The notes under the pieces are model-generated. The model was not told the origin of the DNA. It saw nothing but the letters and a program-made list of their open reading frames with translations, and did not search any database. A stretch of 64,000 bases of DNA from Ptychodera flava (lineage: Eukaryota; Hemichordata; Enteropneusta; Ptychoderidae). The position numbers were made by a program, and so were the translations under genes. The stretch covers positions 22,970,599 through 23,034,598 of the forward strand of contig NC_091933.1 in the NCBI RefSeq assembly GCF_041260155.1. Reading direction: 5' to 3'. This document shows positions 40,260 through 53,370 of the stretch, piece by piece; position 1 is the stretch's first letter; each line of letters begins with the position of its first letter.

Positions 40260-43200
40260 ATGGCACCTCTGGCACATTCACTCCCGCCTGCCAGTAAACA
40301 CTCGCTTTTTATGCGAGGTTTCGGGGGACAAGTGAACAAGGAAGACATACGGTAAGACTAAACGATCTGAATATAGGTAATATTGGTACCAACTTCAATG
40401 ATCGTTCTTTACATTGCGATGTAAATCAAATGAGTGTGTTACTGTGTCACGTCGGGCCATTTCACGCCGCAGTTCAGCTGTTTGACGTATGTTGCGTACA
40501 TATGGGTTGCGACATATCGCACAAGGCACGACAATCGCGGAATCCATTGCACTCCGCTGAGTTAAAGTCTTTGGTGGCTATTCCGTGACGGTTTTTCAAG
40601 ACCACCCTATGGCAGATGGACTCCATTTGCAGCCATTCTCCCGCGTCTGTGTGTGTGGACTGACACTGACATGCACCGGAGCCCATGGCCACGATCGACC
40701 GCTGACCACTAGTCGATTTGTGGGTTTCCGAAACCTACTGAGTGAGATCATGAACGTGTCCTACATACATGTAAATCTATTCGCGTAGACGCGGTTACTT
40801 CTCCAAACGATATACGGTGTATTGTTCATCAAAAAGATTTCTGGCGTGTCAAGGGACACTGATAGTCAACGATCTGTCATATTCTCCAACAATGTTTGGT
40901 GCTGTATGATTTCATGTGAACTGTGAACAAATAAATCGTTGATGTCACTCAGCGGAAATTACAGGAAAAGATACATTGAGCTGCATTCTGAAGCGTTTTA
41001 TGATACTTCAATTTGCGAAGATTTAAATTTTAGGGTATGTTAGGTCCGGCTCAGACCAGGCAAAAAAACCCCAGCAAAGCCACAGTTCCTGTGATGGGGA
41101 ACATGGTAGAACTAACTTTTCAATGGACAGTCAGCCCAGTGGTTGTATACTTAATAGAAATTAATAATGACACATCCCTTTTGGTTGAGTGCTTCGCAAG
41201 CAGCATAATGGAACAATATTTGTCTGTAGTGTTATTACTGATCAGCAGTATTTACACAAATGATGCATGTATGGAGAAGGAAACACTTCAGGTATAAAAC
41301 TGACACTCGTGATTTTAACGCAGCTTGATATCAGTATCAACACATGTATTTGTGTCTGATGCACAGGACGATGATTTCATGCGAAAAAGCATCCTCTTCA
41401 ATAGACACAGGTTGTGTCGCTGTCAACACTTTGCCATCAACGATATTTTCATGACTTCTGTCACTTTTCAGATCAAACAACAAATTCCATATTTTCAACA
41501 ATTATGAGTGAAACAAAATTTTAAAAAAAGGGTCAGCATTCCATCTTAAGCTGGATTGACGTGCAACTGATGCAGCAAGGAAATTGTACATATTACACAC
41601 ACTTGTGTTGGTCTGATTCGACGAAATTGCCAGAAACCTGTATATTGACTTGACAAAGTCATGAATGGTATGCAATATCAGTATGCTCTCAAACGCAATA
41701 GAGCTTGTTTCTTACACATGTTGACATTCCCATATTGCTGGAATATATCTTTGCACCATGTTTATGTTACATGTGCTGTAAGTGTTACCAATCTGACATA
41801 CAGGAAGTACGTCCCAAGAATTGTAAACTTGATTCAAGGAACTCAGGAATATCTGTGTGTTGTAGGGTAATAACCTTCTGTCATACATATCCCACTGAAG
41901 TTTAAGCATCGAGGTGATTTGGAAAGAAATAGAGAAATGGGAAAAATAAGTGTGTGAAAACCTGGTAATGACAGTACAATGACTCTGGATTTTTCAAGAA
42001 TGCTTTCATTTGAAATTTAACTTCTATTGAAAGAAGTGACACTCACATCTGCACTCAAGGACAGTTGCATAAATTTTCTTGTGTTTTGAGAGTTCAACAA
42101 ATTGGCATCGAATGTGAAATGAAGTGCAGCATTATATTTCGAATTAATTGATTTGTGTGCAGTTCCCACTGCCCATACAAAACACCATACGTTTTATAGT
42201 TACCAGCATTTTGTATGTAGCAGGCTTTAGCCTTCTCTGCCCCGTATTTCTGTACACTGACACTATACTAGTGACAGCCATACCAACCTTGGATGATGTA
42301 AGCGGTTAAATTACGTAGCATTTTTTTCTGTCTTCACGATTTTTGTTACATTCGTTCATCCAGTCTCTGTGTGTAATCATATTCTCCACTTCTAAGAGTC
42401 CAGAAGATACATTTCAATATTTTTAGGTTTGTCCTTCAACTTTGCTCACAGACATAAAGTTATTGATTGATCTTATAGACCAGTTTAGTTTGAAAACAGG
42501 ACTTTTAATAGCACTGGAAAATTGAAAATTAAATGTGGAAGATTGACAAGAAGATATTAGTAAATAAAGAAAATTCCATCATATGATTTTTACCGTATGC
42601 ACATCAAAGTCTAAAATGTTACTGAGAAGCTTTAGGGGCTGAAAAAAACAAACAAGGTCTACTGTAATAAAAACTTAAAAAACAACAGTATGGCACTGAT
42701 ATGAACAAACGCTGCGATATAAGTTGACCCAAATGCACTCGGTACAAAGGGTAACAGTCATATATAATCAACGCCTACATCAGCTGTTGCTGTACAAGTT
42801 TCAGAGCAACACAGGAATTTTGTTCATTTGCAGTAATTTTTTTTCTTCTCCTCTTAATTTGTCAACAGTACCAGTCACTGTAGCATGACAGTGCTTGGCA
42901 GAAACAAACAAAGATGTATACAAAAAATCTTTGAAAATTTCACTAATTATGATTGCCAGTATAAATAATGATTAATCAACTCATAAAAGCAAGTTTTCAC
43001 GTGTGTGAACAAGAAAGGCGATTGTTTAGCTAAGCCTGTGAGGGGGACATGAGCAAAGGTTAGCTTGGAGATGTTTGGATCTGTTCCAATAGATACTAAG
43101 CACAGGTCACCTTAGGCGACCTCGCAAATGTAGTTACATCAGGGGGGAAAACCACATTGTATTTATTGTCAGTAGCTTGACTTCTCACTTTTGGTTTCGA

Positions 43201-52200: not shown

Positions 52201-53370
52201 ATGTATATATGTATGTATATATATATGTACGTACGTACTTACATTGCATGTATGTATGTATGTATATATGTATGTATGTGTGTGTTTGCATGTATGTATG
52301 TAAATGTATGTACATACGTACTTATGTATGTATGTAATTATTTATGTATGTATGTGTGTGTATATTATATAATACATACACACATGTATGTGTGTGTGTG
52401 TAATTTTGATAATTGACAATCTGGTTGTATATGTATCTTCACCATAGTAATGTAGCAAATTTGTCAAAACCATGCCACTTGAGAAATTACTTGTGAATAT
52501 TAATTTTTTAAGTTGAAAATATTATGAGGTTATTACGAAAATACCGCAAAGGATGCACGAGGACATTGGCGCAGCGTATCGCCCGACGTGAAGCGGAGGG
52601 CGATGCACGGCGCGAATGTCCGAGTGCATCCTTTGCGGTATTTTCGTAATAACCTTATTATTATACATCTTACATTCCTGACTGGGGCATCAAATTGTCA
52701 GAGTAGTGACCGTTTTCGTGCAATGTCAACAATTTTTCTTCCGATTTTATCACGCCAGTGTGGAACGCTATCTCGGACGCGCTTCTGCAAACTTGGGAGT
52801 GTGTGCACTACACACACACATACGTACAGAGCGTGCGCGATACTTGTTCTTGCACTCGTCCAAGGGGTCTCTTGAAACCGTTCTACAGTGAATGCGCAGA
52901 TATTCGCTGATCACTGCGTCTCACGTGCTTGTCACTGAGGCGGGGACCAGCCAATGCGCAGATACAGCCGCAGGGGATGGGGCGCCTTGAAACCGTACGT
53001 GTTACGGAACGGGCGTTCCGTACGGCTTTTTTAGCGCACGCAAAATTCTATTGTTCTCGTTGGTAGATGTATAATAATGTATTTTACATTTTACAGCATT
53101 TTCATCCATGTTGCAAAGCTCTGTTGTGCTTTAATGTCAGAGGTCATGGTTTGTGGAATGGCTATGCAAAAGTACACATATCATGCACACATGTAAATGG
53201 CAAAGTTGAGTGTGACTGATTTTTTGTATTTTATCATCAGCAAAGACCCCTCTTTGGAGGAAAAGTTACAGTATTCATTGGAGGAAAACTTGAAGCTCAT
53301 TGGGCAAAAGAGTGTGGAAGAATTGAAGGACACCATAGAGTCTGTGAGAGCAAACCGGGACAAACCGTAA
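40260..53370 (+). CDS. PPHLN1: periphilin-like HUSH subunit with N-terminal RRM, nine exons
   Basis: Exons: 40260-40351, 44770-44898, 46612-46691, 46962-47050, 48088-48231, 48627-48665, 50141-50812, 51905-51957 and 53241-53370. All have GT/AG borders and matching phases, giving 475 residues. The start is in Kozak context (aaaATGG) with an in-frame stop at 40206. Residues about 14-92 form an RRM: SLFMRGFGG (RNP2-like), VNKEDIRNFFAKE (helix 1), KLYVALRFKT (a degenerate RNP1), ELARNVYDRFDGKSILGS (helix 2) and TIKMSWFRD (strand 4). Residues about 130-250 are Arg/Ser-rich with repeated RSPSP-like motifs; 260-390 is a Ser-rich, disordered stretch. The C-terminus (about 396-475: KAKKEEIERAYRQDCETF, VVKMLISKDPSLEEKLQYSL, IGQKSVEELKDTIE) matches human periphilin, where this helical part dimerises and binds TASOR in the HUSH H3K9me3-silencing complex. 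Identity of the C-terminus is firm; the RRM join rests on phase and fold. Confidence 0.88.
43742..43888. repeat. (TA)n-(TG)n-(GA)n compound microsatellite
   Basis: Three successive dinucleotide runs in intron 1 of the periphilin gene. Confidence 0.98.
44590..44642. repeat. direct duplication
   Basis: 'ggaccctaacaaaaaacact' occurs twice in immediate succession, about 130 bp upstream of periphilin exon 2. Confidence 0.7.
52077..52350. repeat. (GTAT)n microsatellite region
   Basis: Long impure run of gtat/gtac/tata units in the last intron of the periphilin gene. Confidence 0.95.
52527..52655. repeat. 129-bp foldback with a 32-bp perfect outer stem
   Basis: The left arm (aggttattacgaaaataccg, continuing to atgcac) is exactly complementary to the right arm ending at 52655. 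A further partly paired 14 bp (ggacatt.gcgc) and a CpG-rich loop follow. It lies in the last intron of the periphilin gene. Confidence 0.85.
52656..53084. mobile_element. CpG-rich element with inverted ends
   Basis: Begins tattattatacatctta and ends tagatgtataataat, an inverted pair. The interior is much richer in CpG than the surrounding intron and contains the hairpin tacggaacgggcgttccgta (53003-53022). Together with the preceding foldback it may be one composite insertion. Confidence 0.5.

Follow-up and report, generated by a model that had tools for sequence, protein, structure and literature searches.

A predicted periphilin gene of Ptychodera flava with an RRM at its N-terminus

A single nine-exon gene on the + strand of Ptychodera flava contig NC_091933.1, as predicted from sequence, probably encodes a periphilin that begins with an RRM. 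Periphilin helps to silence jumping genes. The gene lies within a window of 64,000 nucleotides, by which we mean the whole stretch of DNA that was analysed, and splicing of the window DNA rebuilt a product of 475 residues from nine predicted exons, with an ATG at 40260 and a stop codon ending at 53370. An earlier note on this DNA had proposed the same nine-exon, 475-residue model, in phase at every intron, and the model was reproduced: all eight introns are GT-AG and their phases are compatible throughout. The features of the gene, all positions being those of the window, are as follows.

40260..40351, + strand: exon 1, with the start codon, predicted RRM beta-1/RNP2 (LFMRGF, residues 16-21) and predicted alpha-1; the RRM_1 match begins at residue 16, and CpG-rich windows are found at 40101-40900
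44770..44898, + strand: exon 2, with predicted RRM beta-2, beta-3/RNP1-like (KLYVALRF, residues 55-62) and alpha-2; supported by the Pfam match and by acceptor and donor scores
46612..46691, + strand: exon 3, with the end of the RRM and predicted beta-4 (IKMSW); phase-1 donor AAG/gtgaga, 8 of 9 consensus positions
46962..47050, + strand: exon 4, where the basic serine/arginine-rich linker begins; an in-frame ATG at 46952, 10 bases upstream, is a possible RRM-less start
48088..48231, + strand: exon 5, RS-rich linker; its acceptor carries A at -3 and its donor, at 6 of 9, is the weakest in the gene
48627..48665, + strand: exon 6, RS-rich linker
50141..50812, + strand: exon 7, RS/S-rich linker, then the start of the C-terminal helical domain
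51905..51957, + strand: exon 8, Periphilin_C helix (AYRQDCETFATVVKMLI); supported by Pfam and PDB-sequence matches
53241..53370, + strand: exon 9, the remaining Periphilin_C and the stop codon
40305..46648, + strand: region matched by RRM_1, residues 16-86, exons 1-3
50768..53349, + strand: region matched by Periphilin_C, residues 401-469, exons 7-9; PF25234 and 6SWG chain A

Introns 1 to 8 measure 4418, 1713, 270, 1037, 395, 1475, 1092 and 1283 bases. Their donors match 6 to 9 of the nine consensus positions and their acceptors have a pyrimidine at -3 in seven of eight cases, the exception being that of exon 5. No second in-frame ATG occurs in the 17 codons that separate the start codon from the nearest upstream stop, and AATAAA is found 262 and 378 bases downstream of the periphilin stop.

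Several other features of the window may be recorded here. An open frame on the - strand (39361-40308), with a zf-RVT match at E 3.4e-8 over residues 147-198 (about 39715-39870), is located 5' of exon 1 and partly overlaps it in antisense orientation. It would place a LINE-like copy near the putative promoter of a gene that, in its human counterpart, acts to silence elements of this sort. In intron 1 a dinucleotide repeat, (TA) in 28.5 copies and then (AG) in 29, occupies 43749-43887, and intron 8 contains a palindrome (52521-52661) with 64-base arms, 88% complementary and 13 bases apart, in a CpG-rich patch at 52.2-53.2 kb. Further away, at least two exons of a gene for a queuosine salvage protein are found on the - strand at 22916-25841 (PF10343, E 2.2e-18 and 4.1e-13), and two long ORFs at 14050-16096, also on the - strand, resemble by eye a Crypton/DUF3504-type recombinase, with a Pfam match at E 0.22 for one and none for the other. 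Minisatellites are present at 13003-13942 (42-base unit), 27051-27620 (19-base unit) and 62508-63316 (119-base unit).

The C-terminus is that of a periphilin. Pfam Periphilin_C (PF25234) matches residues 401-469 at E 1.1e-26, with 93.4 bits against a cutoff of 27, and when the last 80 residues were searched against PDB sequences the sole clear match was 6SWG chain A, human periphilin-1, at E 5e-19; the remaining four rows were histidine--tRNA ligase, from E 0.19. Both results bear out the claim of the earlier note that these 80 residues are periphilin. Identity to 6SWG amounts to 38 of the 63 aligned residues. In human periphilin the dimer interface is formed by Leu326, Leu333 and Ile337, and the TASOR contact which the authors mutated is Leu356, as described in a passage of PMC7544229. 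Mapped on the 6SWG alignment, all four positions are Leu in the P. flava protein, three of them identical and I337 conservatively changed, and for this reason both the dimer and the TASOR interfaces look to have been kept. Searches of two collections not devoted to animals, one of viral contigs and one of genome contigs, confirmed no relatives of the C-terminal 80 residues.

At the other end of the protein, a profile search of residues 1-100 returned RRM_1 (PF00076) at E 5.1e-5, with 23.5 bits against a cutoff of 20.7 and all 70 profile positions aligned (1-70), in agreement with the RRM proposed by the earlier note; with the whole 475-residue protein as query the same family scored 19.5 bits (E 9.3e-4), slightly below the cutoff. 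None of nine control sequences, the reversed sequence and eight composition shuffles of residues 1-100, gave an RRM match. The pieces from exons 1 to 3 scanned singly (30, 42 and 26 amino acids) had no Pfam match at E 1, these being short pieces with low power. The only other Pfam family for residues 1-100 was BRAP2 (E 0.02; 15.5 bits, the cutoff being 22), and RRM proteins made up 17 of the 18 rows of PDB sequence matches, the remaining one being Cas9, all of them weak (best E 0.19). FUS, GRSF1 and RBM8A/Y14 were among these weak best matches. Assignment to a named RRM subfamily was attempted from the PDB sequence search, and none was significant.

The RNP2 and RNP1 motifs given above were read by eye. 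Three aromatic residues in these motifs usually stack on RNA. By eye, two of the three are present in the P. flava protein, F17 in RNP2 and Y57 at position 3 of RNP1, features which it appears to share with the RRM proteins just named together with the full-length RRM_1 match; it differs from them at position 5 of RNP1, which is Ala59. The description of the N-terminus as a complete RRM-like fold needs qualifying at this RNP1 position, where an aromatic is usual. Since F17 and Y57 are there and the third aromatic is Ala59, RNA binding by the predicted RRM is plausible, not assured.

Between the two domains lies a serine/arginine-rich linker of about 300 residues, which is probably disordered. 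Human periphilin likewise has a long basic low-complexity region before its C-terminal domain, and its N-terminus is described in PMC7544229 as disordered, Arg/Tyr-rich and self-aggregating, the disorder agreeing with what the earlier note says of the vertebrate protein. The P. flava protein, in contrast, starts with a predicted RRM, and its residues 101-400 contain 23% Ser, 12% Arg and 3.3% Tyr (36 R and 10 Y in 300 residues), with 23 RS or SR steps. Alignment with a human N-terminal stretch points to no closer relationship: for residues 101-250 the best alignment was reached by 264 of 1000 shuffles, so that the likeness is one of composition only, and homology of the linker to the human N-terminal region was rejected on this ground. 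Residues 1-100 show no similarity to the same stretch (783 of 1000 shuffles reach it).

The next question is whether the two ends belong to one gene. The exon 3 donor and the exon 4 acceptor, which a simple pyrimidine score places among the best 1% of AG sites, agree in phase across the 270-base intron. The CpG observed/expected ratio reaches 1.07-1.38 at 40101-40900, on and just after exon 1, and these are the only windows with a ratio of 1 or more between 40000 and 52000; since such peaks are common in the window (63 of 636 windows) and the peak in intron 8 is higher (1.45), the patch at exon 1 is support for one gene, not proof.

The reading that best survives beside the single gene has two promoters, a long RRM-periphilin being made from the one and a short periphilin from ATG 46952 (MASERFF...) by the other, with the RRM specific to one isoform. 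Exon 4 could indeed be a first coding exon, since its frame is open upstream to the ATGs at 46937 and 46952, the second of which is followed by G, and five windows starting at 46601-47001 have a moderate CpG ratio of 0.73-0.79. However, 0.79 is the maximum around exon 4, where no peak reaches 1, and the exon is preceded by a strong acceptor in phase with a strong exon 3 donor; we therefore hold a second promoter to be unlikely. Somewhat less probable again are two neighbours on the same strand, a small RRM protein encoded by exons 1-3 and a periphilin that begins at exon 4. If exon 3 is continued through its donor, the frame is open until a stop ending at 46795, and five AATAAA/ATTAAA sites are found in intron 4 (47321-47568), as such a pair of genes would have it, whereas the donor at 46691 fits 8 of 9 consensus positions in a matching phase, the start of the second gene would have to fit in the 270-base gap before exon 4, and the nearest listed AATAAA for the first gene falls beyond exon 4.

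Whether the three-exon RRM chain could have arisen by chance was investigated by enumerating chains and by scoring codons. Every phase-compatible open chain of three exons from an ATG was built from the 6.8 kb before exon 4 with simple splice thresholds, and scored against a generic RRM consensus with HMMER filters off and splice thresholds loosened, a single consensus being a blunt query. The chain of exons 1-3 ranks first of 3591, with 6.4 bits; ranks 2 to 4 (6.3, 6.1 and 5.9 bits) keep exons 2 and 3 unchanged and use an inner ATG or another donor, the variant from the inner ATG at 40311 scoring 6.3, and exons 2-3 joined to other first exons reach 4.8 bits at most. The best control chains scored 5.1 bits in 16 equal tiles elsewhere and 3.6 bits in 12 Markov resamples, which leaves the chain a small lead of 1.3 bits over the best tile. 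Among the ten tile-winner chains scanned, of 16, none has a Pfam RRM and two match the queuosine salvage family (Q_salvage), which argues that the method recovers real exons.

Codon usage was scored with a training set of 345 codons from exons 5-9 and 106 from the queuosine gene; this score and the tile control excluded the two + strand tiles overlapping the gene region, as well as one terminal 3 kb per strand. The mean score is -0.015 for exons 1-3, 0.170 for exon 4 and -0.339 for 5000 random stop-free draws, 0.8% of which score as high as exons 1-3, and the predicted reading outscores the five alternative readings of these bases. Exons 1-3 are thus more coding-like than chance stretches, yet about neutral on this small scale. 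That the RRM is an artefact of exons picked by eye, as a pattern-seeking reader might pick them with 3591 chains to choose from and just that lead of 1.3 bits to show for it, is very improbable in the light of the full-length Pfam match, the clean shuffle controls, the first rank of the chain and the lack of an RRM in the ten scanned control chains.

The reading that we prefer is accordingly the single RRM-bearing periphilin, which we infer to be made from one transcript. Among the papers listed by a literature search that left aside preprints and most subscription papers, none was found to describe a periphilin with an RRM; within that literature the domain arrangement is undescribed, and proteome databases may already hold such proteins. 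A passage of PMC7532188 terms HUSH vertebrate-specific, and TASOR-like proteins are described from invertebrates in a passage of PMC10578480. HUSH, of which human periphilin (PPHLN1) is a subunit, has also been likened to the fission yeast RITS complex (Chp1-Tas3), with Tas3 in the place of periphilin, in a comparison of architecture only (PMC7532188).

What is described of the human protein bears on what an RRM might contribute. Silencing requires its N-terminal region, which TASOR binding does not, and disordered regions from RNA-binding or self-associating proteins can partly take its place, according to PMC7544229, where it is also stated to be unknown whether periphilin complexes with mRNA; a passage of PMC8770142 locates periphilin on target transcripts. 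In the mechanism that we propose for P. flava, the C-terminal hairpin would dimerise and be wrapped by a TASOR-like protein, as the contact positions suggest. Because of this proposed dimerisation each complex would carry two RRMs and two RS-rich tails toward nascent RNA, and the RRMs, if they bind RNA, would act with the basic RS-rich linker to tether the complex to nascent transcripts and so may serve silencing, whereas human periphilin would have only its disordered Arg/Tyr-rich region for this purpose.

As to the origin of this arrangement, the suggestion of the earlier note that the RRM is ancestral draws support from no result here. We tentatively raise the possibility, which we think doubtful as it stands, that periphilin originally had an RRM, that the HUSH of early animals read nascent RNA by a folded domain, and that vertebrates lost the RRM and kept the disordered region. 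Conserved TASOR contacts in a periphilin would also have a bearing on how old HUSH is, if the species is an invertebrate. For the question of how HUSH recognises its target transcripts, a periphilin with a folded RRM, if true, would provide a discrete, mutable RNA-binding unit and make an RNA-reading role easier to test.
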